Origin: Dehalococcoidia bacterium
GTDB lineage: Bacteria > Chloroflexota > Dehalococcoidia > GIF9 > UBA5629
NCBI GenBank assembly: GCA_028716085.1
Contig: JAQUQM010000012.1
Coordinates: 1 to 32,920, forward strand
Direction: 5' to 3'
Length of the DNA: 32,920 nt
Shown here: piece by piece, positions 1,819-19,557 of the stretch
Layout of the letters: every line of letters begins with the position of its first letter
How positions within the stretch are numbered: the first letter of the stretch is position 1
Translations under genes and position numbers: made by a program
The notes under the pieces: model-generated
Told to the model about the DNA's origin: nothing
Databases searched by the model: none
Seen by the model: only the letters and a program-made list of their open reading frames with translations

Positions 1819-1869
1819 AGCTACGACGAACGGACTAAATGAAAAACAGTGAAAATTGTTTGGCAAGTC

Positions 1870-1899: not shown

Positions 1900-1928
1900 G
1901 CAGGAAAATATCGCAAAGGTGGTGAAGT

Positions 1929-2291: not shown

Positions 2292-2353
2292 TTACAATAA
2301 TGTAGGTTTGCTGCTGAAGTAATACTCATCATAAATATCGTTTTTTTGAATAA

Positions 2354-2385: not shown

Positions 2386-2417
2386 AATATACATTCGGGA
2401 GGATTATAATTCAGTAA

Positions 2418-3101: not shown

Positions 3102-3122
3102 TCTCTTAATACAATCTGCAGA

Positions 3123-3521: not shown

Positions 3522-3605
3522 GTGGTACCAATAACATGGATCATCCTAACATCCTGGCCGCACGACGTCAAATCGTATGAGACAAAGGGTCGTACAATTT
3601 TTTTA

Positions 3606-3614
3606 TGCTATAAT
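3606..3614 (+). promoter_or_regulatory. Extended -10 promoter of the metallophosphoesterase gene
   Basis: TGCTATAAT (TGn-TATAAT) ends nine bases before the GTG at 3624. The expected start point near 3621 leaves about three untranslated bases, and no ribosome binding site is present. This matches the arrangement in front of thiL. Confidence 0.55.
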
Positions 3615-3623
3615 CCAGTTCTT

Positions 3624-4358
3624 GTGAAGTACCTGGTCGTAGCTGATATCCACAGTAATCTGGAGGCTTTTCAGGCGGTGCTGGATGATGTCAATGAGAA
3701 TTACGGCGGTTTTGACCACATCTGGTGCCTGGGAGATATTGTGGGATACGGCCCCAGTCCGTCACAGTGCATCAAACTTTTACATGAATTTGATTATACC
3801 TGCGTGTGCGGCAACCACGATCAGGCGGCAGTGGGTAAGCTGGACACCTCCGATTTCAATGCCGACGCGGCAAGCGCCAACGAGTGGACCGCCCGGCAGC
3901 TTTCGGAAGATGAGAGACAGTTTCTGCTGGACCTGCCCGAGGTGGTTATTGAAGGTGAATTCACCATCGTGCACGGCAGCCCGCGCGCACCGGTATGGGA
4001 ATATATAACCTCGGCCCTCTCGGCCGCGGAGAGTTTCCGGCATTTTGATACAAAGTACTGCCTGGTCGGCCATACACACGTTCCTTTTGTATTTGAACAG
4101 GATGAAGTCTCGGTGAATGAAGGCTATCTGGGAAGTGGGGATATGCTTGTGCTGGGGGGCAACCGCCTGATCATCAATCCGGGTGGAGTGGGCCAACCAC
4201 GTGACCGCGACCCGCGCGCCAGCTATGCAGTCTATGATTCTGAAAAAAATATTGTTTACCATTACCGGGTTTCATACGATGTCTCAGCCACACAGGAAAA
4301 AATGGAAGAAGCGGGCCTGCCCGGATTTTTAATCAGCAGGCTGGGATGGGGTGTATGA
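3624..4358 (+). CDS. Calcineurin-like metallophosphoesterase (YfcE/MJ0936 type)
   Basis: A 244-residue phosphoesterase with all five metal-binding motifs: DIHSN (D8, H10), GDIVGYG, GNHD, VHGSPR and GHTH. The single-domain length fits the small MPE family of phosphodiesterases; the natural substrate is not predictable. I chose GTG at 3624 because the protein begins KYLVVADIH, as the family does, and the upstream frame has no homologous content. Its last 61 bases recur, about 87% identical, at 18307-18367 beside the SRP RNA gene, which suggests that MPE and SRP RNA were once neighbours. Confidence 0.9.
   Translation: MKYLVVADIHSNLEAFQAVLDDVNENYGGFDHIWCLGDIVGYGPSPSQCIKLLHEFDYTCVCGNHDQAAVGKLDTSDFNADAASANEWTARQLSEDERQFLLDLPEVVIEGEFTIVHGSPRAPVWEYITSALSAAESFRHFDTKYCLVGHTHVPFVFEQDEVSVNEGYLGSGDMLVLGGNRLIINPGGVGQPRDRDPRASYAVYDSEKNIVYHYRVSYDVSATQEKMEEAGLPGFLISRLGWGV
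4288..4358 (+). repeat. Direct-repeat copy 1: 3' end of MPE, starting at CCACACAGGA
   Basis: This stretch from CCACACAGGA (4288-4297) to the MPE stop codon is repeated at 18297-18367, same orientation and same length, with eight differences in the 61 bases after the shared decamer. The two copies bracket the 14 kb catabolic island. Confidence 0.85.
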
Positions 4359-4698
4359 GGCATTGGCGTGGTGAACGGATTCAGATATAATAGTGCACGA
4401 TAGGTGCATACAGGCTGCTTTGATTTTTCCCCTTACGGCAAGTTGGCAAGTTATGTTACATGGAGGATAGGATGAGGCCGTATTTAAAGACATTTTTAAA
4501 CCTATTTTTCTCTTAAACATCTCGCCATCGGCTACATTGTTAATGAGTTTTCGGATATGGTATCGTGAAATGCATCAAACTCAGCGATTTGCTTAAAAGA
4601 AGTGGAGAACTTGGGGAAGCCTTTTGTCCGGATGATGTCGCAACATATAATAATTAGTATTCCGGGCGCACCTAAAGGTACGACCCCGCGCATAAAAA
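4359..4698. other. 340-base intergenic region with an orphan promoter
   Basis: There is no recognisable gene between the MPE stop and the stop of the convergent CoA-transferase gene. A promoter-like pair on plus, TTGGCG (4363-4368) and TATAAT (4386-4391) with a 17-base spacer, sits immediately after the MPE stop and leads to no gene. A short plus-strand frame of about 30 codons (GTG at 4565 to about 4657) has no ribosome binding site or recognised motif. It may be eroded DNA. Confidence 0.6.
4363..4391 (+). promoter_or_regulatory. Orphan sigma-70-like promoter just after MPE
   Basis: TTGGCG-17-TATAAT begins four bases after the MPE stop codon. The SRP RNA promoter sits at an equivalent place after the MPE fossil at 18370. 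No gene follows on this strand before the convergent CoA-transferase. It could drive a small RNA or be a relic. Confidence 0.4.
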
Positions 4699-6471
4699 TC
4701 AGGATTTAGTGTAATAGCCACGGGGATCGAAGAGTCTGACCATCATTATTTCCTCTTGGGATGGCAAGTCGATTCTCTTGAGTTTAGGAGCAACTTCAAC
4801 TTCCCAGGAGACTACTTTCTTAATGCTCTTAATAGCTTCTTCCTCTTCTAATGCAGTGGCATAAGGTGAATAGGCTGTAAGTGTGAATTTCTCCTCGCCA
4901 TCAAGTTTTTCGAAAATACCCACATCTGTGATTAGCGTTTTAACTCTGTTACCCGGATAGGTTATATAGGGGACTTTTTCCACCAGCCTTTCTTTGCCAG
5001 AGGAGCAAAAAGCTATTGTCTCCCTGCAAGTAGTGACAATATCATTGGCTCCGCCGGAACCTACCATATAGAAAACACCGGGGATCTCCGTTGAGTTCGC
5101 ATTGCCATAAACATCGATTTGTCCCCCAGCGAGTACCCCCATACAGGAGTTAGTAGGACCCCCCACCATTACACCCAAAGCGGTTTCGATGTTGGACAGC
5201 ATCTTACAGGACCAAAAGTTGTGCATGCTGAAGACTGTGGGATCGGACGGCCTCGGCAGATAACCGTACATGCCTATTTCGGCTACCAGGTCTACATCAT
5301 AGCCAGTTTCCTTCAGTTTATAGGTAGCCATCCAGGCCGCCAGATTGGAAAGGCCTATTCCTGCCAGGATGTTCTTGTATCCTTTCGATTTACATCTTTC
5401 CATGATGAATCTGCTACCGGCAATGACCATCGTCTCCAACCTATTGGCTTCCTTATCAAATTCCACTACCGGCACGGCAGCCAATGTTTCCGCCACCCAG
5501 GAGTAAGGTTTAGCCTTGTCTTTGAGATAGCGCAATCTATCTCCACCAATTTTTTCGAAATACTGCTTAGGATCGGGGCAATCTAGTATCCATTCTTGGA
5601 TAAAGTTTAGAAATTTGTTTTCATCCATTGAGGCATTCCTGATCAAAGTTGCAAACTCATAGTCTTCGAAATATCCCTCGAACTGCGATACTCCGAAACT
5701 AGACATCCCACTAGGATGTGCACCGAATGGCACTTCGCAAACAGCTTTCACCATGTAGGAAGGAATACGAACCATATGGGCATGGCTGCGTATATATTCG
5801 GTGGATACGATGTTTTCCACACTCACGATAACGCCTTCTTTTGCCGCCCATGCTCCGAAGGCATCTACATTTAAGGGATAGGATAAAATGGTATTTCCAC
5901 TGCGGTCAGCAGCTATGCCGTGAACCATTGTGATGTCTGGGCGTAGAGCCTTCACAAGGCCTATCTTATTTCCCGAATTGAAAGGAGATTCTATAACCTT
6001 AAAAGAATTTTTATTATCCTTGGCTATGGAACTACCGATAAGCGAATTGGTAGGTATGAAATCCCAACCCATTGCGCCGGCCATCAATCGCTGAGTGATG
6101 GTGAGCATGGACCAGTTCTCAAACTCGACCGCACGGGTGATGTAGGCTTTTTGCACCAGCGGGTTTGGGCCGGGAGTTGGGTAGGAATTGCCGGCGAAGC
6201 TAATTACAGCTTTTTTAAGCAGGTTGCCACATAAGAGCACTAGAACAAGACTTGCTAATGACGGACTTATCAGCGTAAAGTTGGCATTCTTGCCCCAGAA
6301 TTCACGCACAAGCTGATAAAATAGAGCTCCGCCCTTGCCTGCGAAGTGAAAGGACATACCCCTACGTAAATTTTTACTGACAGCTTCTTCAAGAGAACAG
6401 ACCTTATCCTCACCCTCAATGGGTGGTATATTAAATTTAGCATCTATGAATTTCTTCAGTTCATCTTTCAT
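4699..6471 (-). CDS. Fused family I CoA-transferase (alpha and beta in one chain)
   Basis: A 590-residue CoA-transferase. The alpha-like half spans about 1-340 (GMSFHFAGKGG near residue 38; DITMVHGIAADRSGN). The beta-like half spans about 350-590 and carries the probable catalytic Glu398 in VAEIGMYGYLP, then GGQIDVYGNANST and GSGGANDIV. Family I enzymes move CoA between acyl groups through a glutamyl-CoA ester, and can activate an acid at the expense of another acyl-CoA. The acyl substrate is unknown. It is transcribed opposite to the catabolic operon and toward MPE. A GGAGG lies 12 bases before the ATG. The island also holds a split enzyme of the same family (15707-17545). Confidence 0.9.
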   Translation of the reverse strand: MKDELKKFIDAKFNIPPIEGEDKVCSLEEAVSKNLRRGMSFHFAGKGGALFYQLVREFWGKNANFTLISPSLASLVLVLLCGNLLKKAVISFAGNSYPTPGPNPLVQKAYITRAVEFENWSMLTITQRLMAGAMGWDFIPTNSLIGSSIAKDNKNSFKVIESPFNSGNKIGLVKALRPDITMVHGIAADRSGNTILSYPLNVDAFGAWAAKEGVIVSVENIVSTEYIRSHAHMVRIPSYMVKAVCEVPFGAHPSGMSSFGVSQFEGYFEDYEFATLIRNASMDENKFLNFIQEWILDCPDPKQYFEKIGGDRLRYLKDKAKPYSWVAETLAAVPVVEFDKEANRLETMVIAGSRFIMERCKSKGYKNILAGIGLSNLAAWMATYKLKETGYDVDLVAEIGMYGYLPRPSDPTVFSMHNFWSCKMLSNIETALGVMVGGPTNSCMGVLAGGQIDVYGNANSTEIPGVFYMVGSGGANDIVTTCRETIAFCSSGKERLVEKVPYITYPGNRVKTLITDVGIFEKLDGEEKFTLTAYSPYATALEEEEAIKSIKKVVSWEVEVAPKLKRIDLPSQEEIMMVRLFDPRGYYTKS

Positions 6472-6902
6472 AGGCGTGAGCGTCCTCCTTTATATATATA
6501 TTGGCTGCAAATCAACGGATGCCTGATGCCGCAGGTGTTTTCTATTCTATCTACATGAATATAGAAACCACAATTCTGGTGGCCATATAAAATTATGATT
6601 AATTCCCGATCCAATTCCTATCTGAATAAGGTTATGCCCTGGTTGTCAAAACAAGCTTACCGACCCAGAAATTATCTTGAACGCCTTCTTGACAAATTCA
6701 AGATACTTGTATAGTAGTAAATGATACTAGTATAAATATATTATTCAATTCTGTCAATTTCATCACAGATAGGAATGAATTATTTAATATTGGGGGGGCA
6801 CGGTGTGCGACTAGAACGGCAGTCCGATAGATCGCATGACTTCACATAAATATAACTAGGAAAAATATATTACCAAATAAGGTAAATGTATATTGCCATC
6901 AA
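6472..6902. other. Intergenic region with a second copy of the operon promoter motif
   Basis: This 430-base AT-rich stretch holds no gene. On plus it carries CTTGACAAAT (6688) and ACTAGTATAAAT (6726), the same two elements in the same order and nearly the same spacing as in front of the acyl-CoA dehydrogenase (7702 and 7738). A G-run near 6791 resembles the G-rich ribosome binding site of that gene, but the GTG after it meets a stop after three codons. It looks like a decayed duplicate promoter whose gene was lost. Confidence 0.5.
6688..6737 (+). repeat. Duplicated promoter/operator motif, copy 1
   Basis: CTTGACAAAT at 6688-6697 and ACTAGTATAAAT at 6726-6737 on plus match CTTGACAAAT at 7702-7711 and ACTAGTATTAAT at 7738-7749 in the same order, 38 and 36 bases apart. 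Copy 1 has TTGACA but no plus-strand gene of its own. Both copies flank the padR-type gene. Confidence 0.45.
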
Positions 6903-7523
6903 TTACTGTTTTTCGATTTTGCGGCCTCTCGTTTTTTCGTTTCTTCTTCGGTCAAGATCTTGACTATCCAACGATTTCTTAATGGCATTTTCATTAAAAT
7001 CAGTGATAACTCTTATCGCTTTTTCTACAAAGCTAAGGGTATCCCTATAACGTGAAAGAATGAAATCGTATACTAAGCTTTTGTACATATAATCGAACTC
7101 ACTGGGAGAATCTTTTCTGCTTTTTGTATATTTTTGACTTTCTTGCCGATAATATACGTACTCTTGCTGTACATTTCGTGCAAATTTGTTTAATAACATT
7201 AAGGTGGTTTCCTTATTTACCAAAGCACTATACCACAGTATAACCGACAATCCATCATTTCTAAATTTATCATTCGAAAATGTAGTGAGCCACTCCGTTA
7301 ATACATCGCGCCCCTTTTGTGTGATACTAAATACATTTTTAGCAGGAAATTTCTCTTGTTCTACTCGTTCAACTTCGACCAGGCCCTCGTCCAGCATTAA
7401 ATTCAGGTATCTGTATACCACTGCTCGAACCGGTCTAATCGGTTTAAAAAATCGCTTGGTTAGTTGATACCCTGTAGATGGTTCATAACTTAAAAAGCCT
7501 AGCAGGGGGTATTTTAAGCTCAT
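6903..7523 (-). CDS. PadR-family transcriptional regulator
   Basis: A 206-residue regulator. A PadR winged helix occupies about 1-85 (LGFLSYEPSTGYQL; YRYLNLMLDEGLVEVERV; FSITQKGRDVLTEWL). A helical C-terminal domain of about 120 residues follows and ends in a basic tail. PadR repressors usually sense small organic acids or xenobiotics and control a neighbouring or divergent operon. Its divergence from the acyl-CoA dehydrogenase operon makes that operon the likely target. The ATG has a ribosome binding site AGGAG about eight bases upstream. Effector and binding sites are inferred only. Confidence 0.88.
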   Translation of the reverse strand: MSLKYPLLGFLSYEPSTGYQLTKRFFKPIRPVRAVVYRYLNLMLDEGLVEVERVEQEKFPAKNVFSITQKGRDVLTEWLTTFSNDKFRNDGLSVILWYSALVNKETTLMLLNKFARNVQQEYVYYRQESQKYTKSRKDSPSEFDYMYKSLVYDFILSRYRDTLSFVEKAIRVITDFNENAIKKSLDSQDLDRRRNEKTRGRKIEKQ

Positions 7524-7565
7524 TTATTATCTCCTGAATTATAAGTAATTTATACATGAATTTAA

Positions 7566-7577
7566 ATAGTTAACTAT
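7566..7577. promoter_or_regulatory. 12-base palindrome, candidate PadR operator
   Basis: ATAGTTAACTAT is perfectly self-complementary and sits about 43 bases before the PadR start codon. Autoregulation by PadR proteins is common, so this is a candidate site. AT-rich DNA yields such palindromes by chance fairly often. Confidence 0.35.
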
Positions 7578-7701
7578 CTACTAATCTAAATTTTCTATAA
7601 TCAAATGCATTAATAAATACATAGGCTATTTATATTTTCTCTGTTAATAATGTTTATGCTGATAATAGAATTATATCGCAAATGCCGTTCCTGTAATAGG
7701 A

Positions 7702-7757
7702 CTTGACAAATGATAATTATGTGATAACATATAATAAACTAGTATTAATTTATACTA
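7702..7757 (+). promoter_or_regulatory. Promoter/operator of the catabolic operon (motif copy 2)
   Basis: TTGACA at 7703-7708 is a consensus -35 box. TAACAT at 7725-7730 gives a 16-base spacer, and TATAAT at 7730-7735 gives 21. Downstream, ACTAGTATTAATTTATACTA is an imperfect dyad that could hold a repressor. Confidence 0.5.
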
Positions 7758-7871
7758 TATTGATCCGGATTTGATGTCAAACGTCTAATTAATTAGAAGT
7801 GTAAAAATATATAGTCTGGCAGCACACGGTTCGCGATTGGCCAATATTGATAATAACTTTGGGGGGTACTA

Positions 7872-9038
7872 ATGGAATTCGAGCTTACAGAATCTCAAAA
7901 AATGTTACAAAATACCGTTCGTGAATTTGTTGAAAAGGAGATTACTAAAGAATATTGTCGCCGGTGGGATACCAATCATGAAACAATGGACTGGCTTGAT
8001 CAAAGGATTAGGATAAAAGGCATTGAATTGGGTCTGTTTTGCATTGCAGTGCCCAAGGAGTACGGGGGATTGGGTGGTGGCATGGTGGATGAAGTCATAA
8101 TAGTAGAACAGGTCGCTCGACGTTCTCCAACAGCTGCATTTTCTGTGGGAGGACGAATGTTTGTAGAGCTGATAATGCAGTATGGTACTGAAGAACAAAA
8201 GAATGAGTATTTACCGAAGATGGCAAATGGCACGATAGGTTTTGCTATTGCAATTACTGAACCCGCAGGTGGAACTGATGTTCTTGGCGCCATGTCCACC
8301 ACGGCTGTATCCAATGGTGACAATTTCATTATTAATGGACAAAAGATATACATCACGGGAGCCCACAGGGCGGATTTTATATGTACTCTGGCAATTACAG
8401 ATAGAAACCAACCAAAGAGAAGCAAAGCGGTTTCTCTGCTTTTTGTTGATAGGAAAAGCAAGGGATTAGAGGTAAAGCCTTTGAATAAGCTTAGCATGAG
8501 GGGCGCCGGCACAAATGAAGTATTTTATGCTGATGTCAGAGTGCCCCGGGAGAACCTTATTGGTGAGCTTAATAAAGGATTTTATCAACTGGTCAGCCTG
8601 CTTAATCCTGAGAGAATCTTTTGTGCGGCCACTACAGTTGGTTTAGCGCAGGGCGCTTTCGAAGACGCCCTGGAATACGCTAAATCCAGGATGGCATTCG
8701 GTAAACCGATAGGGCAATTCCAGATTATTCAACATTGGTTAGCAGACATGGCTATTGAAATTGAAATGGGCCGTCTGATGACTTATAAGGCTGCATGGCT
8801 CCTTGACCAGGGCAAGCCGGCTTATCTTGAAGCAGCCGCAGCCAAGGTATGTACATCTGAAATAGCGGTAAAAACCACGACAAATGCCATGGAGATATTT
8901 GCTGGCGCCGGTGTGATGATGGAAACGGATATTCAGCGGTATTTCAGGGATGCAAGACAATTTACATTTGCGCCGATCAGCAACGAAATGGCAAGGAATT
9001 TTATAGGTGAATTAATGGGATTGCCCCGATCATTTTAA
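7872..9038 (+). CDS. Acyl-CoA dehydrogenase
   Basis: A 388-residue flavin enzyme of the acyl-CoA dehydrogenase family that forms an alpha,beta-double bond and passes electrons to ETF. Features in order: an N-terminal helical domain, the FAD/substrate loop ITEPAGGTDV, the SMRGAGTNEV segment, FGKPIGQFQIIQ and RYFRDARQF. At the position of the MCAD catalytic Glu (YEGT) the protein reads FAPIS, with Pro368. A Glu247 in NPERIFCAA lies where isovaleryl-CoA dehydrogenase has its base, so that residue is the probable base. It is the first gene of the plus-strand operon, with a G-rich ribosome binding site. Chain length and branching of the substrate are unknown. Confidence 0.93.
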   Translation: MEFELTESQKMLQNTVREFVEKEITKEYCRRWDTNHETMDWLDQRIRIKGIELGLFCIAVPKEYGGLGGGMVDEVIIVEQVARRSPTAAFSVGGRMFVELIMQYGTEEQKNEYLPKMANGTIGFAIAITEPAGGTDVLGAMSTTAVSNGDNFIINGQKIYITGAHRADFICTLAITDRNQPKRSKAVSLLFVDRKSKGLEVKPLNKLSMRGAGTNEVFYADVRVPRENLIGELNKGFYQLVSLLNPERIFCAATTVGLAQGAFEDALEYAKSRMAFGKPIGQFQIIQHWLADMAIEIEMGRLMTYKAAWLLDQGKPAYLEAAAAKVCTSEIAVKTTTNAMEIFAGAGVMMETDIQRYFRDARQFTFAPISNEMARNFIGELMGLPRSF

Positions 9039-9066
9039 AAAAGAATTATTACAGTAAGAGGGAACT

Positions 9067-9870
9067 ATGAACAAGAATCAATATGAATTTATCATTTATG
9101 AAAAGCTGGATGGTGTCGGTAAAATTATTTTTAACAACCCTGCACGGAACAATGCCATGTCAGCCAAGATGCTGACAGAATTGAAGGATGTACTATTAAA
9201 TGCCCAGTTTGACGGCAGTGTAAATGTTCTGGTATTAACCGGCGCAGGAGACAAGGCTTTTTCATCAGGGCAGGATTTTGCCCTGCCTTTTGAGGGCGCG
9301 GGTACTTCCGTGGGAACGTATAACTACTTGAGGAATGTATGTTATGAAGCCCACAGACTTATGGAAAAAATGGAGAAGCCCATAATAGCTGCTGTTAATG
9401 GCCATTGCCTTGCAGGTGGGTTTGAGTTTGCTCTGGCCTGTGATTTTATTATCGCTTCAGAGAACGCTACTTTTGGGATGCTAGAGGTTGGCCTGGGCAT
9501 ATTGCCTGGATCAGGTGGAATTGTACGCTTATGCAAGGCGCTACCGGTAAGGAAAGCCAAAGAATTGCTTTTCACTACCAGGCGTTTTTCGGCAAAGGAA
9601 GCAGAAGCAATGGGTATTGTCAACAAAGTAGTACCTCAAGGTAAACTTGCGGAGGCGGTAAAGGAAATAACAGACAGCATTTGCCAGAAATCGCCACTGG
9701 CAATCAGGCTTGCCAAGATGGTTGCTAATGCCAGTATAGAAACAACTGATATCGATGTGGCTCTGGCATTGGAAAGATCAGCGGGAGCTCTGATATCTGC
9801 TTCCGAGGATGCGAGGGAAGGTCCGATAGCCTTTCTTCAAAAACGGCCGCCGGTGTTTAAGGGCAAGTAA
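9067..9870 (+). CDS. Enoyl-CoA hydratase/isomerase (crotonase family)
   Basis: A 267-residue crotonase-fold enzyme that should add water across an enoyl-CoA double bond. The oxyanion-hole region AAVNGHCLAGGFE and both catalytic glutamates are present: Glu120 in GGFEFA and Glu140 in GMLEVGLG, exactly 20 residues apart as in rat crotonase. It is therefore probably a true hydratase and not one of the inactive family members. It lies 28 bases after the dehydrogenase and 38 before the thiolase-fold gene, within one operon. Confidence 0.93.
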   Translation: MNKNQYEFIIYEKLDGVGKIIFNNPARNNAMSAKMLTELKDVLLNAQFDGSVNVLVLTGAGDKAFSSGQDFALPFEGAGTSVGTYNYLRNVCYEAHRLMEKMEKPIIAAVNGHCLAGGFEFALACDFIIASENATFGMLEVGLGILPGSGGIVRLCKALPVRKAKELLFTTRRFSAKEAEAMGIVNKVVPQGKLAEAVKEITDSICQKSPLAIRLAKMVANASIETTDIDVALALERSAGALISASEDAREGPIAFLQKRPPVFKGK

Positions 9871-9908
9871 ATAAATTGGTGATTTCAATACAGGAGGAAA
9901 ATTTTGAT

Positions 9909-11090
9909 ATGAGCAGAGGCAAATTGGCCATTGTAGGTATTGGAGAGGTAGCTACCGGATGGTATCCGGACCGGACAGAGTGGGACATGATTTATGATAC
10001 CTGCATAGAAGCTATCAGGGATTCCGGTTTAGGGAAAAATGACGTTGAGGGGGTTATCTCAGTCAATCCTATGGCACAGCCTAAGCTCCAGGGCGAGATA
10101 GGCTTTGGCAAGGTTCCTGAGGAACTGGGATTGAAAGGGTGCAAGGATATTTGCATTGTCAATGCAGGCGGTTCAACAACCACCAATGCTTTGAGGCTGG
10201 CCGAACACTGGATACAAAGTGGAATTGCTAAAACCGTACTGATACACCATTGCACCAAGCATTCCAGCATTCCGATTGATGAGGCCATACGCTTTTTTGC
10301 TACTGCGGGCATCGACCTGCAATGGGAATATCCATTTGGTATGACATACAATGCTTTGATAGCCCTGTCAATGACCAGGTATATGCATGATACTAAAACT
10401 ACTCCTGAGGAGATGGCTTCAATAGTTGTGGCACTGAATAAATGGGCCCAGCTTGATCCACTATCAATGAACAGGAAACCAGTAACGATAGAGAAGGTAC
10501 TAGCATCTAGGATGGTAACCACTCCTCTACATGCATTTGAGTGTAACCGGCTTGGAGATGGTGCATCTGCCATGGTAGTCACTTCGCCCGAACTGGCAAA
10601 GAAACTCACTGATACTCCTGTTTATAAGTTAGGTGAAGCCGTCCGATATACACAGGCTACCATTACGCAAAGGACTGATAGGGAAGGAATCAGGAAGGCA
10701 GTGTCAGATGCAGCCAAAGAAGTCTTGAAAGAAGCAGGTATAACGCTTAAAGACATCAGCATTCTAGAGCTTTATGTAGCTTACCCGCTGGGCATTGTAA
10801 ATTTACTTGAAGGCCTGGGTATTTGCATGCCTGGTGAAGCTGGCAAATTTATTATGGAAGGCAACACATCGCCGGGTGGCAAGTTACCTGTATCGACAAT
10901 GGGCGATGCTGTTGGTCGGGGGCATACAGGTTCCGGCGTGGGTACGGCCACTTATGTGGAATGTGCCAGGCAATTGATGGGAAGGGCAGGTGAACGGCAG
11001 GTCCCAAACTGTAAATATATATTAACCAACTCGGCCGGTGGTTCTGGTATGAACATGATATGGAGCGTATTTGGGAGGGAACTGAAATGA
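9909..11090 (+). CDS. Thiolase-fold protein lacking the nucleophilic Cys, probable aldolase
   Basis: A 393-residue member of the SCP2/SCPx-type thiolase family. I place the start at ATG 9909, after AGGAGG at 9892-9897; an upstream GTG at 9876 lacks a ribosome binding site. Aligned by eye with human SCPx, the catalytic Cys of NNCSTGSTAL is Gly88 (VNAGGSTTTNAL), and the His of ELHDCF is Tyr289 (ELYVAY). His339 in GRGHTG is kept. Ordinary thiolysis is therefore unlikely. The same changes, with a neighbouring DUF35 protein, mark the Ltp2-ChsH2 steroid side-chain aldolases, so a retro-aldol cleavage of a 3-hydroxyacyl-CoA is the best inference. Its stop overlaps the next start (ATGA). Confidence 0.85.
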   Translation: MSRGKLAIVGIGEVATGWYPDRTEWDMIYDTCIEAIRDSGLGKNDVEGVISVNPMAQPKLQGEIGFGKVPEELGLKGCKDICIVNAGGSTTTNALRLAEHWIQSGIAKTVLIHHCTKHSSIPIDEAIRFFATAGIDLQWEYPFGMTYNALIALSMTRYMHDTKTTPEEMASIVVALNKWAQLDPLSMNRKPVTIEKVLASRMVTTPLHAFECNRLGDGASAMVVTSPELAKKLTDTPVYKLGEAVRYTQATITQRTDREGIRKAVSDAAKEVLKEAGITLKDISILELYVAYPLGIVNLLEGLGICMPGEAGKFIMEGNTSPGGKLPVSTMGDAVGRGHTGSGVGTATYVECARQLMGRAGERQVPNCKYILTNSAGGSGMNMIWSVFGRELK

Positions 11091-11494
11091 ACGATTATAA
11101 TAAACCGTTACCTGTAAAACAACCATGGAGTGAAGAATTCTGGAAGGGCACAAAACGTCGTAAACTTCTAATACAGCATTGCAACGACTGCGGTAAGAAT
11201 ATATTTTATCCGCGTAAATATTGTCCTGAGTGTTGGTCATCCAATCTGGGATGGATTGAATCTAAGGGCACTGGCACACTGTTCAGCTACACAGTGACCA
11301 TGTATGGTGTAGAGGAAAAATTTATGGCGGATTTACCATATGTTATAGCATTAGTTGACCTGGGGGAAGGAATCCGTGTTATGAGCAGGCTTGTAAATTG
11401 CAGACATGAAGATATTAAATGTGATATACCTGTCAAAGTAGTGTTCGAAGACATGACGGATGAATTCACAATCTTCTATTTTGAACCTGCTTAG
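11087..11494 (+). CDS. DUF35 OB-fold/zinc-ribbon protein, partner of the thiolase-fold protein
   Basis: A 135-residue protein with a rubredoxin-like zinc ribbon (CNDC at about residues 29-32 and CPEC at about 44-47) followed by an OB-fold (GTGTLFSYTV onward). DUF35 proteins bind thiolase-fold partners and channel acyl-CoA between active sites, as in archaeal HMG-CoA synthesis and in the ChsH2 DUF35 domain bound to Ltp2. Start ATG 11087 overlaps the thiolase-fold stop by four bases and has GGAGGG seven bases upstream. The overlap implies coupled synthesis and a physical complex. Confidence 0.9.
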   Translation: MNDYNKPLPVKQPWSEEFWKGTKRRKLLIQHCNDCGKNIFYPRKYCPECWSSNLGWIESKGTGTLFSYTVTMYGVEEKFMADLPYVIALVDLGEGIRVMSRLVNCRHEDIKCDIPVKVVFEDMTDEFTIFYFEPA

Positions 11495-11544
11495 TTCAGC
11501 TGCGAAATATTTATTATTTTAAGTTTATAAATGGGAGTGGATTT

Positions 11545-13149
11545 ATGCAAACGCTAGCGGACATTCCAAGAAAATGGGCTTCAATGATCCCAGATAAGGA
11601 GTGCATGGTATGTTATAGTTATGATGAAGAAAGGTTCACCTGGAAGCAGTTAAATGACAGAATAAACCGGTTAGCCAATGCTCTGCTCAAATTGGGATTC
11701 AAGCGAGGTGAACACCTCGCTATACTCATGGAGAATTGCCACAGGTATGTAGAGCTATATTACGCTACCTATAAGACCGGTATCATACCAGTGCCTCTGA
11801 ATTTCAGGCTTCATCGTAATGAGATTCGGCACATCATCGAACATTCCGATGCCAGAGGCCTGGTTGTTGGTCCGGAAAAGGAATTACATGAAATTCTTGC
11901 AGCAATCAAACCGCAATTAAAGAAGGTAAGAACATTTATAAGTGCCATTGAACGTGTTCCGGGTATGGAATATTATGAGAAAATGTTAGAACAAAGTACG
12001 TCCAATGAGCCTCCGGTGGAAATCAAGGAAGATGATGATGCTCTATTGATGTATACCGGTGGAACCACAGGATTGCCTAAAGGCGCTGTATTGACACATA
12101 GAAACCAGGTTAACTGGATCATTGACGGGTTAATTACTTCAGTAGTATTCAACAGTACAAGCTTCAATAAAGACGATAGCACACTATTCATTCTTCCCGC
12201 ATTCCATATTTCTTACTGGCCCATCATACTTTATCATTTCCTTGGATTAAAAGTAGTTATGGTAAGAAGGCCGGACCTCATACAGATAATGCAACTGATC
12301 GAGAAAGAGAAAATTACTCACATGAATGCCGTGCCTACAGTATATTTCTGGCTTGTAAATCATCCGGACCTAAGGAAATATGATTTAAGCAGTATTGTAA
12401 GTTTTGGTTGGGCGGGTGCTCAATTCCCTCATGAGGTACTAAAGCAATGTATAGAAGTATTTGGTCCTGTATTTACTTCGGGATGTGGTGCCACAGAGGG
12501 CGGCCCTTGGGCCCAGCTCGGTTTTAGCGATCATGTAATAGAGGGCTCCGAACTTGAGAAAGACCGGATCAAATCTATTGGAAAGCCCACTTTATTATGT
12601 GATGTCAAGATCGTAGATGATAATGGAAGAGAAGTTAAGCAGGGTGAAGTAGGCGAGATGGTCGTCAAGACCAAATCAACTATGAAAGAATACTGGAAAG
12701 ATCCTGAAAAAACTAAAAAGGTTATGAAAGGTGACTGGTATTATACAGGCGATCTGGGATATGTTAGTGAAGACGGCTATATCTATCTGAAGGAAAGAAC
12801 TGCTGACATGATCAAAAGCGGTGGCGAAAGAGTCTATCCCTCTGAGGTTGAAAACGTTATTTATAAACATCCATCTGTCTCAGAAGTCACCGTGATAGGC
12901 GCACCCGATCTGGAATGGGGTGAAAAAGTAGTAGCTGTTGTTTATCTAAAGCGGGAATTCCATGAGAAGTATAAAGAAAATGAAGATAGCCTGCGAAATG
13001 AGCTTAAGGAATTATGCCGCAAAGAGTTGTCCGGATATAAATGTCCGAAGGTGATTGACTTCAGCGACCAACCACTGCCTAAAACAGTCGTGGGCAAATT
13101 GACAAGAAAAGAGCTGAAAGATAAGTATAAAACAGCCGGCAATAAATAA
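11545..13149 (+). CDS. AMP-forming acyl-CoA ligase
   Basis: A 534-residue ANL-superfamily enzyme that adenylates a carboxylic acid and transfers it to CoA. The P-loop motif YTGGTTGLPKG is at residues 170-180. Later motifs are SGCGATEGG, YYTGDLGYVSEDGYIYL and RTADMIKSGGERVYPSEVE, with the catalytic C-terminal Lys in VVGKLTRKEL. All expected elements are present, so it should be active. It probably activates the substrate of the operon; the type of acid cannot be read from sequence. A GGGAGTGG ribosome site precedes the ATG. Confidence 0.94.
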   Translation: MQTLADIPRKWASMIPDKECMVCYSYDEERFTWKQLNDRINRLANALLKLGFKRGEHLAILMENCHRYVELYYATYKTGIIPVPLNFRLHRNEIRHIIEHSDARGLVVGPEKELHEILAAIKPQLKKVRTFISAIERVPGMEYYEKMLEQSTSNEPPVEIKEDDDALLMYTGGTTGLPKGAVLTHRNQVNWIIDGLITSVVFNSTSFNKDDSTLFILPAFHISYWPIILYHFLGLKVVMVRRPDLIQIMQLIEKEKITHMNAVPTVYFWLVNHPDLRKYDLSSIVSFGWAGAQFPHEVLKQCIEVFGPVFTSGCGATEGGPWAQLGFSDHVIEGSELEKDRIKSIGKPTLLCDVKIVDDNGREVKQGEVGEMVVKTKSTMKEYWKDPEKTKKVMKGDWYYTGDLGYVSEDGYIYLKERTADMIKSGGERVYPSEVENVIYKHPSVSEVTVIGAPDLEWGEKVVAVVYLKREFHEKYKENEDSLRNELKELCRKELSGYKCPKVIDFSDQPLPKTVVGKLTRKELKDKYKTAGNK

Positions 13150-13294
13150 GTCTATACGAAAAATATTAATTTTGGGTTTATAGGAGGCTATCCATGGCAA
13201 CAGCAGGACTCTTTGATCCAATCCACATCAAGCACGTGGAAATTCCCAATAGGATAGCATTGGCTCCGATGAACGTGACATATTCCACACAGGA
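13139..13294 (+). repeat. Source of the fossil: end of ligase and start of oxidoreductase
   Basis: This 156-base stretch covers the ligase stop codon, the spacer and the first 34 codons of the oxidoreductase, and ends at CCACACAGGA (13285-13294). A degraded copy, about 80% identical with a two-base insertion, lies at 18149-18306 in the same orientation. Confidence 0.85.
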
Positions 13295-14468
13295 TGGATA
13301 TGCGACGCAGCAAGATATGGCTCACCTTGCACGTAGGGCGCAAGGGGGATTCGGCCTGATCATCACAGGGGCTGTAATTGCCACAAAGCTCGCAGCGCCA
13401 TTTGTCTATCACCGGAACCTGTATTTGTATGATGAGTCATTTGTTCCGGGTTTGAATATGATGGTACAGGCTTGCCACAACTTTGGCGCTAAAATATTTT
13501 GCCAGTTAAGCGTCGGGTTCGGCCGGCAAGGGCATGCACTTGACGGTAGGCCATCACCTGCTCCTTCACGTATACCCCTTGAACGTTCACCCGAAAGGAC
13601 ACCCAAAGGCATAATTGATTATATGATACGTGCACCCGGCGTGCTAGCGGAAACATTACACGATCCGGTTCCCAGAGAGATGACTATTGAAGAGATTAAG
13701 GATGAAGTATACCAATATGCCATGGCTTGCAGGAAGTGTGTTTATGCTGGGTTCGATGGAATTGAAATACATGCACCGCACGGCTACCTAGAGCATCAAT
13801 TCCTATCACCGCGCTCTAACAAGAGGACCGATATGTATGGTGGCTCCTTGGAAAACCGGATGAGGTTCCTGCTGGAAGTCACTCAGATGGCGCTTATGGC
13901 TGTTGGTAATGCAGTGCCAGTCGGTATCAGGATGAGCGCGCAGGAGCATATGCCCGATGGTATCACGATTGATGAGGTGAAAATTGTTGTCAAGAGGCTG
14001 GAAGATCTCGGTGTTGCCTACCTTCAGCTATCGGACGGTTCATACGAAGCTCTTGACTATATGTTCCCCGGTTCTATTAAGCATGTAGAGGAGCATCTTC
14101 TCAGGGAAGCGAAAGAGATTAAATCAGTGCTCAAGATACCCATTATTGTCCCCGGCGTTAATGATCGGGCCATAGCAGAAAAGGCGATAGCGGAAGGGGT
14201 AGCGGATATGATCTCGCTGGGAAGGGGAGCACTGGCAGATCCCGACTGGCCTAATAAAGTGAAAGCTGGCAAAAAGGTAACAGAGTGCAAAAGGGATTGT
14301 ATGTGCCTGATAGGATCATTGGTAGGTCTTTCTCCGAGGTGCACGGTCAATCCTGAACTTGGTTACGAGCAATACGATCCTGATCTTTTCCCCAAGAAAA
14401 GGGTCGGGCCTACTGTACCTTCTGCTTTGACTAAGCTGCCACCGCCTCCACCCCCGCCTCATATTTAA
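13194..14468 (+). CDS. Old Yellow Enzyme-type NADH:flavin oxidoreductase, short form
   Basis: A 424-residue FMN TIM-barrel protein related to the N-terminal half of 2,4-dienoyl-CoA reductase and BaiCD/BaiH. It has HAPHGYLEHQFLSPRSNKR (probable proton donor Tyr198) and MYGGSLENRMRF. Cys365, 369, 371 and 383 sit where these enzymes bind a 4Fe-4S cluster, but the spacing is C-x3-C-x-C-x11-C rather than the usual C-x2-C-x3-C-x11/12-C. The FAD/NAD(P)H-binding C-terminal half of the long family is missing. The chain ends in a poly-proline tail (KLPPPPPPPHI). A role in reducing an enoyl- or dienoyl-CoA in the operon is likely. The start has TAGGAGG upstream. Confidence 0.9.
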   Translation: MATAGLFDPIHIKHVEIPNRIALAPMNVTYSTQDGYATQQDMAHLARRAQGGFGLIITGAVIATKLAAPFVYHRNLYLYDESFVPGLNMMVQACHNFGAKIFCQLSVGFGRQGHALDGRPSPAPSRIPLERSPERTPKGIIDYMIRAPGVLAETLHDPVPREMTIEEIKDEVYQYAMACRKCVYAGFDGIEIHAPHGYLEHQFLSPRSNKRTDMYGGSLENRMRFLLEVTQMALMAVGNAVPVGIRMSAQEHMPDGITIDEVKIVVKRLEDLGVAYLQLSDGSYEALDYMFPGSIKHVEEHLLREAKEIKSVLKIPIIVPGVNDRAIAEKAIAEGVADMISLGRGALADPDWPNKVKAGKKVTECKRDCMCLIGSLVGLSPRCTVNPELGYEQYDPDLFPKKRVGPTVPSALTKLPPPPPPPHI

Positions 14469-14577
14469 AGCAAGCAGCTAAGCTAGCGGAGATGGATTTA
14501 TAACGTGTTAACGATAATTACTAATTGAGCATACGGTAATTTTAACATTGGGATTTATTAAATGGAAGGACGTAAAG

Positions 14578-15585
14578 ATGGCTACAAAACAATTCAAAAA
14601 GGACGGTTACTTTAAAATTGACCCTGAAGCTCACCTCATTGGTGATATGACACCCTATAACTATTATCCGGGTGTAAAAATGTGGTGGGACGCTATTGCC
14701 AATATTAGGCGTCCGCTCACCATGGGTGCCCCCGTTTCTTTAATAGAGACGTTGGAACCTGATGAAATGGTTAAAAACCATAATCCTCAAAACCTGTTAA
14801 ATGCGATGGATAAATATGGCGTTGATATTGCCTGCCTTTTGCCGGAATCAATGATGGATACTACCCTATATTCCAGTCGCTGGGTTTCGAATGGGGATAT
14901 GGCCAAGGTAGTCGATTCAAATCCTGATCGATTTATGTACGAACCCAATGTCTCCCCGATAAAGTTTAGGGGGGTAAAAAATGCGATTTGGGAACTTGAA
15001 TATTGGGTCAAAGAAAAAGGTGCCAAAATATTCAAATACTATCCGCCGGAGGATACTTATATTAATGATGAAGATCTCTGGCCATTCTACAAAAGAGCTG
15101 AAGAACTGGATATTGTGCTGGATATTCATACTGGTATGAGTTGGTGCCCACCTGGCAAGAGCAAATATGCAGTGCCGATATTGCTCGACGATGTTGCTCG
15201 CGATTTCCCGCACCTGAAGATCATTGCCTTTCATATGGGCTACCCGTACTGCGATGAGTTGAATATGATAGCGATGGGACATCCCAACATAACGCTATGC
15301 CTGACTTTGCTTGTTCCCTGGGCGATAATGGCCCCGCGTAAATTTGCCAAGATTATTGGTGAAGCATTGCGTTTTGTAGGTCCTGACAGGATTACCTGGG
15401 GTGTGGATTATGCTGGTTACGCAGCTCAGATGGCGTTTGCAGTAACCGGGCTTCGCGAGTTCCAGATACCTTTGGATATGCAGGAATCTTACGGATATCC
15501 TGCAATCACCGATGAAGATCGTGCAAAAATATTTGGTCTTAATCTGGCCAGATTAATGGGCATTGATACTAAAAGGAGAATTTAA
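14578..15585 (+). CDS. Amidohydrolase-family (ACMSD-like) metal enzyme
   Basis: A 335-residue amidohydrolase 2 family TIM barrel. Likely metal ligands are Glu17 and His19 (DPEAHL), His184 (LDIHTG) and His219 (AFHMG), with Asp277 (WGVDYAG) as the catalytic acid. Members hydrolyse C-N or C-C bonds or decarboxylate acids (ACMSD, gamma-resorcylate decarboxylase). Which applies here is not known; a decarboxylation or ring-opening step would fit the operon. I chose ATG 14578, with GGAAGGA seven bases upstream, over an in-frame ATG at 14548 without a ribosome site. Confidence 0.88.
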   Translation: MATKQFKKDGYFKIDPEAHLIGDMTPYNYYPGVKMWWDAIANIRRPLTMGAPVSLIETLEPDEMVKNHNPQNLLNAMDKYGVDIACLLPESMMDTTLYSSRWVSNGDMAKVVDSNPDRFMYEPNVSPIKFRGVKNAIWELEYWVKEKGAKIFKYYPPEDTYINDEDLWPFYKRAEELDIVLDIHTGMSWCPPGKSKYAVPILLDDVARDFPHLKIIAFHMGYPYCDELNMIAMGHPNITLCLTLLVPWAIMAPRKFAKIIGEALRFVGPDRITWGVDYAGYAAQMAFAVTGLREFQIPLDMQESYGYPAITDEDRAKIFGLNLARLMGIDTKRRI

Positions 15586-15706
15586 TCCGAAGTAATTAGT
15601 TGGATAAATTACTTCAAAATATTTTGCTCCCGTATACGGCTGGTAAAGATATCTTGATGAGACATGGATGATACTGAATGTCTGCAACTAAAGGAGATTA
15701 TTTCCT

Positions 15707-16717
15707 GTGGAAGTTTTATATGAAGGATTAGGCCAGCTAATCGGCTGGCATGATCCGGATGAAAATCGCGAATACGTATTGCACAATAAATCCCGTGAAT
15801 TAAAAGATAAAACCATGACGGCTAATCAAGCCGTCGGTAAGTTTATCAAAGACGGTGATTTTATTGCCAGTGGTGGATTCGGTCACGTCAGGGTTTCCAT
15901 GAACATTATCTATGAGATATTGCGGCAGCAAAAACGCAACTTAATCATGGCCGGTAAAACTGCGGTACATGATCTTGATATACTGGTTGGAAATGGATGT
16001 GTGGATAGAGTTGAAGTGGCATACAGTTTCGGTCATGAGATAAGAGGCCTTTCTCCGGCCAGCAGGCGCATGGTGGAATCAGGGAAATGTCGTGTAGTAG
16101 CTGAAACCAGCAACGCTGGTTACCAGTGGAGATTTCTGGCGGGAATGCTGGGAATACCTTTTCTTCCCAGCCGTAATCTGATGGGCACAGATACGGCTAA
16201 ATATAGTTCCTGTAAAGTTGTAAAAGATCCTTTCAGTGGTAAGCTTATAAACCTGATTCCCGCCGCTTATCCTGATGTCGCTTTTATTCACGTTCACAGG
16301 TGCGATATCTACGGTAATTGCCAGATAGATGGTATTCTGGTGGAAGATTTTGAGCTTGCACGTTGCGCCCGAAAACTCATTATTACAACGGAACAAATCA
16401 TCTCATCCGACGTTATACGCACAGAGCCGTGGAAAACAGTAATACCGTTTTATTTCGTTGATGGAGTGGTAGAACAGCGCTATGGATCACATCCTTGCGA
16501 GATGCATGGGGAATATTTCTTTGATGAGGAACATATCGCTGAATGGCTTGATCTATCCAAAACTGATGACGGAGTGAAGAAGTATTCTGGCAAATACATT
16601 TACGGTGTTGAGGATTTTGGCGAATATATTGAACTTTGCGGCGGCGAAAAGAAAATGTTCTTCTTAAAAGAGCGTCAAGCTATGCGAGTGTCATTAATAA
16701 CACCATGGCGAAAGTGA
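15707..16717 (+). CDS. Family I CoA-transferase, alpha subunit (GctA-like)
   Basis: A 336-residue subunit with the family features GDFIASGGFGHVR near the N-terminus and FIHVHRCDIYGNCQIDG in the middle. It most resembles glutaconate CoA-transferase subunit A in layout. With the following beta subunit it should move CoA between acyl groups. The start is GTG 15707, preceded by AAAGGAG. It lies 121 bases after the amidohydrolase gene and 42 before the beta gene. Confidence 0.9.
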   Translation: MEVLYEGLGQLIGWHDPDENREYVLHNKSRELKDKTMTANQAVGKFIKDGDFIASGGFGHVRVSMNIIYEILRQQKRNLIMAGKTAVHDLDILVGNGCVDRVEVAYSFGHEIRGLSPASRRMVESGKCRVVAETSNAGYQWRFLAGMLGIPFLPSRNLMGTDTAKYSSCKVVKDPFSGKLINLIPAAYPDVAFIHVHRCDIYGNCQIDGILVEDFELARCARKLIITTEQIISSDVIRTEPWKTVIPFYFVDGVVEQRYGSHPCEMHGEYFFDEEHIAEWLDLSKTDDGVKKYSGKYIYGVEDFGEYIELCGGEKKMFFLKERQAMRVSLITPWRK

Positions 16718-16759
16718 CCAATAAAAATGTTATCTCTATATTTGTAAGGAAATAAAAAC

Positions 16760-17545
16760 ATGAGCTATATCCCTGCAATCGAGTGCAATGTACGTGAATT
16801 CATTGCTTTCACAGGCGCCGGTATGCTTGAAAATGGAAAATCAGTGTTTGTAGGCACAGGTCTGCCCATGATAGCAGGAATACTGGCACAAAAAACACAT
16901 GCTCCAAACCTGTTGATAATATTTGAAGCAGGTGGAGTAGGTCCGATATTGCCCGAGTTGCCTATATCAGTTGGACAATCTCTGACATGCCATCGCGGTG
17001 TTGCAGCATCGAGTATGCACGATGTAATGGCTTCATGTCAGGCTGGTTTTATCGATTATGGCTTTCTGGGCGGAGCGCAAATAGATATGTACGGTAATAT
17101 AAATACTACGTGCATTGGAGACCATAATCTGCCTAAAGTACGACTGCCGGGCAGTGGTGGCGCCAACGACATAGCTTCATTTGCTAACAAGACTATTATT
17201 ATCGCTGCTTCTCAATCCAAGCGCACATTTGTTAATAAGCTGGATTTTCTCACATCGCCTGGGTATTTGGACGGACCTGGCGCTCGTGAAAAGGCTGGGC
17301 TGCCTCTCAGTACCGGGCCGTATAGGGTTATTACTCAGCTTGCGACCTACGGTTTTGATGAAAATACTAAACAGATGAAGCTAATTTCCCTACATCCTGG
17401 TGTGTCGCTCGAGGAAGTCCAGGACAATTGCAGCTTCGATATGCTCATTCCTGAGAAATATACTATCAGTCCGGAACCCTCCGAAAAGGACCTGCATATT
17501 CTGCGAAAGGAAATCGATCCGACCGGGATTATGATAGGTAAATAG
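16760..17545 (+). CDS. Family I CoA-transferase, beta subunit (GctB-like)
   Basis: A 261-residue subunit. Glu56 in IIFEAGGVGP is the probable nucleophile that forms the glutamyl-CoA ester; the equivalent residue of Acidaminococcus GctB is Glu54. GGAQIDMYGNINT and GSGGANDIASF are typical beta-subunit motifs. It pairs with the upstream alpha gene. Together they duplicate the activity of the single-chain enzyme at 4699-6471, so the island may exchange CoA between two different acyl pairs. Confidence 0.92.
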   Translation: MSYIPAIECNVREFIAFTGAGMLENGKSVFVGTGLPMIAGILAQKTHAPNLLIIFEAGGVGPILPELPISVGQSLTCHRGVAASSMHDVMASCQAGFIDYGFLGGAQIDMYGNINTTCIGDHNLPKVRLPGSGGANDIASFANKTIIIAASQSKRTFVNKLDFLTSPGYLDGPGAREKAGLPLSTGPYRVITQLATYGFDENTKQMKLISLHPGVSLEEVQDNCSFDMLIPEKYTISPEPSEKDLHILRKEIDPTGIMIGK

Positions 17546-17665
17546 AAAACTAGTGGAATGTAGTTTAGTAACTATATTCAAAGACAGAAATGTTCCAAGT
17601 TAAGTAACAATTCTTGAGAGAATAATTATCAATTAAAGATATTTTGTTAGTACTAAGGAGATAGC

Positions 17666-18034
17666 ATGGAAAGAGTTAAATGGATGGAGACGAGAGGTAA
17701 GAAAGTTCTATACATTGACTATAGGGGGCTGGTGGGGCTAAAAGGTGAAGCCGAGGCGAATGCAGTATGGGAAGAATCTCAAAGGATTTTGAAAATGTCG
17801 CCAACGAAGGTATTAATGATGACCAATTTTAACGAAGCACATGGCAGCAAAGAATTTATGGACCGTATCAATAAAGAAGGTAAAGAAACCAAAGACAAGG
17901 TTGAAAAATCGGCATTGTTAGGGATAACAGGGGTTAAATCCATCCTGTTCTCTGCTTATGTTCGTTTTACCGGGCAAAATAATTTAAAGTCATTCGATAC
18001 AGAGGAAGCAGCAATAGAATATCTGGTTTCATAA
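17666..18034 (+). CDS. Small STAS/SpoIIAA-like protein of unknown function
   Basis: A 122-residue protein with alternating strands and helices: KVLYIDYRGL near residue 15, an internal helix, then SALLGITGVKSILFSAYVRFTG and a C-terminal FDTEEAAIEYLV. The pattern resembles small STAS/SpoIIAA-like stand-alone proteins found beside signalling genes. No catalytic residues are visible. It is the last gene of the plus-strand run, 120 bases after the CoA-transferase, with a ribosome binding site AAGGAG. It could be a regulator or a structural accessory. The family call is tentative. Confidence 0.6.
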   Translation: MERVKWMETRGKKVLYIDYRGLVGLKGEAEANAVWEESQRILKMSPTKVLMMTNFNEAHGSKEFMDRINKEGKETKDKVEKSALLGITGVKSILFSAYVRFTGQNNLKSFDTEEAAIEYLVS

Positions 18035-18103
18035 AGATGGTGTATGCCCTGCTTGGCGCAATCGCCAGTTAAATGCCTCAATAAGTCAATTGTCTGTAGG
18101 TTT

Positions 18104-18125
18104 GTCTGACCGGTTGAAATCAGAC
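18104..18125 (+). terminator. Possible hairpin at the end of the catabolic operon
   Basis: GTCTGA (18104-18109) and TCAGAC (18120-18125) pair around a 10-base loop, and flanking TTTG/CAAA can extend the stem with a bulge. There is no following T-run, so factor-independent termination is doubtful. Confidence 0.3.
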
Positions 18126-18148
18126 TCAAATCAAAGCCAAGTAAGCTA

Positions 18149-18367
18149 GCAATAAATAAGTCTATGCGGATAATATTAATATTTTAAGTTTATTGGAGAC
18201 CATCAATAGGAACGACAGGACTTTTTGATGCAATCCATATCTAGCATGTGGAAATTCCCAGCAGGATAGAGCTGGTCACAATGAACATGACATATTCCAC
18301 ACAGGAAAAGATGGAAGAGGTCGGCCTGCCCGGATTTCTCATCAGCAGGTTGGGGTGGGGTGTATGA
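18149..18367 (+). pseudogene. Chimeric gene fossil: oxidoreductase start fused to MPE end
   Basis: Bases 18149-18306 are a degraded copy of 13139-13294: the ligase stop, the spacer and the first 34 codons of the oxidoreductase (about 80% identical). Bases 18307-18367 copy the last 61 bases of MPE (about 87% identical). The join lies within CCACACAGGA (18297-18306), a decamer both intact genes carry there. The reading frame continues across the join, but the start codon is ATA (18206) and codon 13 is TAG (18242-18244). It cannot be translated normally and is read as the scar of an illegitimate recombination. It ends two bases before the SRP RNA promoter. Confidence 0.85.
18297..18367 (+). repeat. 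Direct-repeat copy 2: MPE 3' end
   Basis: Second copy of 4288-4358, same orientation. Together the copies bound the island between MPE and the SRP RNA gene. Confidence 0.85.
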
Positions 18368-18369
18368 TC

Positions 18370-18398
18370 TTGAAAAGTTCGGCATGGCATAGTAGTAT
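18370..18398 (+). promoter_or_regulatory. SRP RNA promoter
   Basis: TTGAAA (18370-18375) and TAGTAT (18393-18398) are 17 bases apart. The expected start point at about 18404-18405 coincides with the 5' end of the RNA inferred from pairing. Confidence 0.7.
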
Positions 18399-18403
18399 TT
18401 GTC

Positions 18404-18673
18404 CGGGTCGTGCTAGGCGGGGAACTAGCGGTGCCCTGTACCCGAGATCCGCTATAGCGGGGTCGAATTCCGGCTAGAGGTTTTATCTGTCAGGACTGTG
18501 AGAGTTAAGCGGTGATGAGGGCTGGGTCTTGCGCGGCGGAGTGCTATGAATCCCGTCAGGTCCGGAAGGAAGCAGCGGTAAATAGTAAACTCCGGGTGCC
18601 GCAGGGTTACCTGGTTGGAGCTGGCTGGCTGGAATAAGCTGATGGGTATCATCGAAGGCCGGTGCACGGCCCA
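18404..18673 (+). ncRNA. ffs: Signal recognition particle RNA, large bacterial type
   Basis: The universal core GTCAGGTCCGGAAGGAAGC is at 18555-18573 and the matching GGTGCCGCAGGG is at 18595-18606. The 5' part, with GTGCTAGGCGGGGAACTAGC and GGTGCCCTGTACCCG, is the Alu-domain sequence of the long (Bacillus-type) SRP RNA. The ends pair: GGGTCGTGC (18405-18413) with GCACGGCCC (18664-18672). Inner helices CTGGGT/ACCTGG and CGGAGT/ACTCCG also pair. The length is about 270 bases. It is the scaffold for Ffh in targeting membrane proteins. rsmA follows 30 bases later. Confidence 0.95.
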
Positions 18674-18702
18674 CTAAATAAAGATGTAATAAGTCGCCAC
18701 AC

Positions 18703-19554
18703 GTGTCAAAGAAGGCAGTATCACCTTCCGATAAAATCCGAGGCCAGTTGCTGGGTTCAGGTCTGCGCTCCAGAAAAAGCCTCGGCCAGAATTTTCTTGT
18801 CGATGATGATATCCGGGACAAAATAATTAGGTCCGCCCAACTGTCAGTCGATGACGTTGTAATAGAGGTTGGACCAGGATTGGGAGCGCTGACCGCAGAA
18901 CTGATAAAAAAAGCAGGACGGGTCATTGCCGTTGAAAAGGACGATCAACTGGCCCGACGGCTTGGCGACAGATTCAAGCAGTATCGCAATTTGCAGATTG
19001 TAAATGCCGATATACTTGAAATTAGCCTGGAAAATATCGTGAAAAATGACCGCGGTTACAAAGTCGTGGCCAACATACCGTATTATATTACTTCACCAAT
19101 TCTGCACATGTTTATCCATTCTAAGCTGAAGCCTTCCATGATGGTTGTCATGATGCAGAAAGAAGTGGCTGAGGCAGTTACTGCCAAACCCGGTAAAATG
19201 AGCTATATTTCGGTGAGCATGCAGTTATTCAGCAAACCGGAGATTGTATGTCCTGTGCCGTCAGGCAGCTTTTATCCTGAACCGAAAGTGGACTCAGCCG
19301 TAGTGAAATTCAATATGCTGCCGGTACCGGCGGTGCCAGTGGATAATATAGAGAGATTCCTGAATATTGTGCAGCGGTGTTTTGCAGCTCCCAGGAAACA
19401 ACTGAGGAACTCCATGGCGCTCGGTTTGGACATTGATAGCGGAATGTCGAAGGAGATTCTGGACAGGGCAGGCATCGATTACCAGCGGCGTGCGGAGACC
19501 CTGTCGCTGACGGAATGGCGTGCTCTATACCTGGAAGTAGTGGTAAGGAGGTGA
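18703..19554 (+). CDS. rsmA: 16S rRNA dimethyladenosine transferase RsmA (KsgA)
   Basis: A 283-residue SAM-dependent enzyme that dimethylates two adjacent adenines in helix 45 of 16S rRNA. Motifs: LGQNFLVDD at about residue 27, the SAM-binding EVGPGLGALT and the catalytic NIPYYITSP. Length is normal. The start is GTG 18703; no good ribosome binding site is present between the SRP RNA and the gene, so it may be read from a processed transcript or lack a leader. ispE follows three bases after the stop. Confidence 0.95.
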   Translation: MSKKAVSPSDKIRGQLLGSGLRSRKSLGQNFLVDDDIRDKIIRSAQLSVDDVVIEVGPGLGALTAELIKKAGRVIAVEKDDQLARRLGDRFKQYRNLQIVNADILEISLENIVKNDRGYKVVANIPYYITSPILHMFIHSKLKPSMMVVMMQKEVAEAVTAKPGKMSYISVSMQLFSKPEIVCPVPSGSFYPEPKVDSAVVKFNMLPVPAVPVDNIERFLNIVQRCFAAPRKQLRNSMALGLDIDSGMSKEILDRAGIDYQRRAETLSLTEWRALYLEVVVRR

Positions 19555-19557
19555 AGC

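Follow-up and report, generated by a model that had tools for sequence, protein, structure and literature searches.

A chimeric oxidoreductase-metallophosphoesterase segment as the probable right-hand junction of an old catabolic island insertion in a Dehalococcoidia genome

How did the start of an oxidoreductase gene come to be joined in frame to the end of a metallophosphoesterase (MPE) gene, just before the SRP RNA gene of a Dehalococcoidia bacterium? The segment concerned (18149-18367) lies on contig JAQUQM010000012.1, within the 32,920 nucleotides that were analysed (referred to here as the window). An earlier note, made from the sequence alone, had described it as a free-standing chimeric gene fossil. 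Comparison with related genomes suggests another origin: the segment is very probably the right-hand junction of an old island insertion that duplicated the MPE tail and was joined illegitimately on its right through microhomology. The earlier note had not recognised this junction as the right border of a 13.9-kb insertion.

Composition of the chimeric segment

A search of positions 17901-18600 against the window (blastn) returned significant local alignments for both halves of the segment. Positions 18149-18306 were found to match 13139-13294 with 128/158 identities (81%), two gap positions and E=1e-37, while 18297-18367 matched 4288-4358 without gaps, with 63/71 identities (89%) and E=2e-21. 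Neither half had a further match elsewhere in the 2.46-Mb assembly. The identities previously put at about 80% and 87% are thus upheld for the first half, with the second being 89% over its 71 bp and 53/61 outside the decamer in which the two alignments overlap. This decamer, CCACACAGGA, occurs in exactly three copies in the window, at 4288, 13285 and 18297, with none on the other strand, and the reading frame runs unbroken across the join. The claims of an in-frame fusion and of a join inside a decamer common to both parents were therefore borne out.

The oxidoreductase half is a degraded copy, as the earlier note had proposed, with ATG changed to ATA at the start and AAG changed to an in-frame TAG at codon 13, both as previously reported. 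Ten of its 15 changed codons are non-synonymous, and the residues M1, P9, K13, N19, A24 and P25 are altered, all six of which are kept in the 67%-identical protein of G051, a genome of the same order. Its differences from 13139-13294 comprise 20 transitions and seven transversions, an excess as would be expected under real mutational divergence. Judged against an intact parent, disabling mutations of the kind that define a pseudogene (start loss and TAG) were identified in the oxidoreductase half, with none in the MPE half. Per-site divergence of the two halves did not differ significantly (Fisher p=0.22 on entered counts of 28/146 and 7/61, the tail count of 8/61 given by the script being closer still), so a single date for both is possible. 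The view that the event was not recent was supported.

Table 1. Coordinates of features of the window discussed in the text
Feature	Position	Strand	Evidence
Metallophosphoesterase (MPE) gene, intact; start approximate, open ORF from 3267	3594..4358	+	Pfam PF12850, E=1.8e-19
MPE tail, left copy of the duplication; completes the MPE gene	4288..4358	+	blastn, relatives
Catabolic island (13,938 bp), not present at the site in relatives	4359..18296	.	Adjoining flanks in G001; GC
Parent of the left half of the segment: CoA-ligase gene end, leader and OYE-type oxidoreductase gene start	13139..13294	+	blastn
Partial copy, decayed, of the oxidoreductase leader and initial codons (start ATA, codon 13 TAG); forms the island's right end	18149..18296	+	blastn
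Junction decamer CCACACAGGA, also at 4288 and 13285	18297..18306	+	blastn
Resident MPE 3' end stranded beside SRP RNA, reads (S)TQEKMEEVGLPGFLISRLGWGV*	18297..18367	+	Comparison with relatives
Probable SRP RNA promoter, TTGAAA-N17-TAGTAT	18370..18398	+	Similar sequence conserved upstream of SRP RNA in relatives
Bacterial large SRP RNA	18408..18669	+	RF01854, 188.8 bits, E=8.8e-32

Gene order at the site in relatives

G001 is the only other genome of the genus, and in it the MPE gene directly adjoins the SRP RNA gene. Window positions 2793-4354 align to positions 3-1565 of the G001 locus L006 and window positions 18299-20177 to 1501-3379, which means that the two window segments overlap in the MPE tail. 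The stretch running from the MPE tail into the SRP RNA is uninterrupted in G001 and most of the family examined, with the MPE stop codon 40-41 bp before the SRP RNA in 14 relatives. This linkage is not universal, as G002, G014 and G018 have other sequence between the two genes or in place of the MPE gene. In the genome studied here the MPE gene (the stranded tail aside) and the SRP RNA gene are each single copy, the latter beginning 40 bp past the end of the segment. Since the MPE tail and the SRP RNA adjoin in relatives, positions 18297-18367 represent the original resident 3' end of the MPE gene, still joined to the SRP RNA, and positions 4359-18296 an insertion.

The placement of the MPE half at the SRP RNA, as in relatives, is what decides against a free-standing gene fossil in which illegitimate recombination fused two degraded copies. 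In favour of that reading, the two similarities and the decamer were confirmed and the oxidoreductase half has decayed. The MPE half, however, belongs to a gene neighbourhood conserved in the family, in which the MPE tail adjoins the SRP RNA, and did not arise by degradation of the left tail; for this half the fossil reading is contradicted by the empty site seen in relatives. A fossil of this type is therefore regarded as very improbable; of the earlier interpretation the microhomology junction stands and the two degraded copies do not.

The polarity of changes between the two MPE tails points the same way. Seven codons differ between the left and the segment copy, including codon 0, where the segment carries the oxidoreductase base. 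At four synonymous codons (AAG, GAG, TTG, GGG) the segment has the G001 codon and the left copy differs; the segment alone differs at one synonymous codon (TTA to CTC), and at one further codon GTC in the segment stands against GCG in the left copy and GCA in G001 (Ala to Val). The half that had been described as a degraded copy is thus barely decayed, and lies nearer the outgroup than its supposed parent at four codons. With a single close outgroup (G001) and few informative sites in a tail of 71 bp, the comparison is modest evidence against the segment tail being derived by degradation from the left tail. A foreign origin of the MPE body was considered and rejected, as the identity profile against G001 is level along it except at 4240-4340, where it falls to 0.68.

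The genome is a draft of 165 contigs (96.3% complete, 4.12% contamination), in which a metagenome assembler might have joined unrelated pieces at the decamer. Misassembly is nevertheless highly unlikely, because exact matches at the join reach no further than 19 and 15 bp between copies that have diverged. Differences of 11-19% between the copies, with an excess of transitions, are not the product of k-mer collapse, and both flanks of the island match G001 at approximately 79%, in order.

Downstream of the SRP RNA gene lie ORFs that we take, by eye from their protein sequences, to be ksgA and ispE. The promoter scan yields approximately one site such as TTGAAA-N17-TAGTAT per shuffled region, and the assignment of this motif as the probable SRP RNA promoter draws on its conservation in relatives. 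Elsewhere in the window, ARAGORN predicted a tRNA-Ser with the unusual anticodon ACT (24584-24670, minus strand) within a long protein-coding ORF (24309-26639), which is probably a false positive.

In G002 an unrelated stretch of 1.8 kb (L048, 8165-9948) occupies the same gap between the MPE and SRP RNA genes. An ORF within it was read by eye as presumably alpha/beta-hydrolase-like, and a duplication of the MPE tail, looked for at this insertion, was not found.

The inserted island

The island has a GC content of 43%, compared to 49% in its flanks. It encodes CoA transferases, a PadR regulator, acyl-CoA dehydrogenase, enoyl-CoA hydratase, a thiolase with a ChsH2-type OB protein, a CoA ligase, the OYE-type flavin oxidoreductase and an amidohydrolase. 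Close homologues of these genes are rare, nearly absent, in the sampled relatives. Seven of the island genes lie together in a Syntrophomonadaceae metagenome-assembled genome, MAG-67 (L056), and part-clusters were identified in MAGs of Deltaproteobacteria, Actinobacteria and Freyarchaeota. Differing composition, patchy distribution and the empty site in G001 are the properties by which genomic islands are recognized, and on sequence grounds the island looks like a horizontally moving catabolic module. No integrase or recombinase gene was recognised among the island proteins scanned, such as would identify a site-specific integrative element.

The L056 locus has much the same content as the island (CoA ligase, OYE, amidohydrolase, thiolase with OB protein, enoyl-CoA hydratase and acyl-CoA dehydrogenase). 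The island oxidoreductase has homologues of 55-61% identity in Freyarchaeota and Jordarchaeia MAGs. In a Deltaproteobacteria MAG, two oxidoreductase genes of the same family are arranged in tandem (L057, 2548-5266), which may be a precedent for an island ending in a second copy of this gene.

An oxidoreductase and an amidohydrolase gene also lie within approximately 10 kb of the SRP RNA in G051. Their interpretation as the same insertion was rejected, as several unrelated housekeeping genes intervene (ORFs that we presume, by eye, to be prfA-, hemK- and speE-like) and the MPE gene is on another contig.

Junctions and possible mechanism

At the right junction, the oxidoreductase start is joined to the MPE tail within ten shared bases, the kind of illegitimate join by which homology-facilitated illegitimate recombination (HFIR) is recognized. 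Approximately 1.3 shared decamers are expected by chance between the tail and the island, so microhomology was simply available; the informative part is that the join lies on the decamer, the chance of an overlap of at least ten bases at a random breakpoint being approximately 1e-5. This is consistent with the microhomology-mediated illegitimate recombination invoked in the earlier note. G001 carries ACCCAGGAG at the position of the decamer; when the join was made, fewer than ten bases of microhomology may thus have been available in the resident sequence. At the left junction, homology to the G001 gap extends as far as the MPE stop codon (4358) or ends shortly ahead of it.

The oxidoreductase piece has an inner border as well. 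Similarity to the ligase-oxidoreductase region begins at approximately 18144-18149, the homology probably extending back to about 18144/13134, and positions 18049-18148 showed no similarity above chance to the 3' region of the ligase gene (p=0.73). At least one further join is needed to account for this border. A junction of a tandem duplication (unit 4288-13294) was rejected, as native SRP RNA sequence follows the segment and not a second copy of the island.

The ancestral order was the MPE gene, 40 bp, the SRP RNA gene and then ksgA, and a catabolic cluster of approximately 14 kb now separates the first two genes. On the right, a partial second oxidoreductase start would have been joined illegitimately to the resident MPE tail inside CCACACAGGA; on the left, homology or copying at the MPE tail would have been involved. 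With respect to homologous exchange with donor DNA on that side, the MPE tail is on both sides of the island, but the identity profile gives no indication of a foreign MPE body, and no donor was found. The overall process would most likely be HFIR or replicative template switching, the latter of which would explain both duplicated pieces in a single event. The MPE tail was duplicated in the process: the left copy makes the MPE gene complete, and the other stands stranded before the SRP RNA. The insertion point right before the promoter-like motif, together with the restored MPE end, would account for the survival of both neighbours, and an insertion that kept the MPE gene whole and the likely SRP RNA promoter untouched would have been tolerable. 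The truncated oxidoreductase piece then decayed as a non-coding scar. Neither an intermediate nor a second genome with the island at the MPE-SRP RNA site was found, and we therefore infer the order and number of these events. The genome carries a ComEC-family gene, which is weak support for competence, since most control genomes also have one.

Alternatively, a circle carrying the oxidoreductase start, decamer and MPE tail, with the chimera formed before insertion, could have entered through one crossover within the MPE tail, either homologous or integrase-mediated, which would leave 71-bp repeats on the two flanks. Such a crossover would produce direct tail repeats on both sides and an intact MPE gene, and the layout fits. 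A second oxidoreductase start and an MPE tail must, however, have been present in the donor circle beforehand, and no recombinase gene was recognised among the island ORFs scanned. This course of events is possible though rather improbable; it differs from the favoured explanation only in event order, and the confidences attached to the two are not mutually exclusive.

It is quite doubtful that the locus reflects a reproducible, integrase-free route of entry, whereby microhomology would duplicate the 3' end of a target gene, both neighbours would survive and the MPE-SRP RNA gap would serve as a tolerated landing site in the lineage. The unrelated 1.8-kb stretch in the G002 gap was noted beside this reading.

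Comparison with known systems

Integrative elements that target the 3' ends of genes flank themselves with att repeats. The island likewise lies between direct repeats of a gene 3' end with its target gene whole, but no recombinase was found, and on the inner right the island stops in a truncated gene of its own, joined at a microhomology. Microhomology-mediated template switching (MMBIR/FoSTeS) leaves short microhomology at the join and short duplicated pieces near breakpoints, both of which are also seen at the segment, whereas only one of the joins here has visible microhomology; to our knowledge, the process has not been demonstrated in this lineage.

The corresponding empty site in relatives should be consulted before an apparent gene fossil is taken for a degraded copy. 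Here, the scar shows a catabolic gene block fitted between two housekeeping genes, neither of which was broken. HFIR has been documented experimentally and is known from laboratory transformation and conjugation (PMC3240628), and it has been put forward to explain Vibrio effector modules with displaced gene ends (PMC5361080). As in HFIR, foreign DNA is joined illegitimately on one side, with putative homology on the other, and the original gene end is displaced downstream of the new genes. The present case differs in being read from a scar, in its short gene-tail duplication and in an island end formed by a partial gene copy. The type of event is known and ordinary, and the scar that it left is unusually readable, not surprising.
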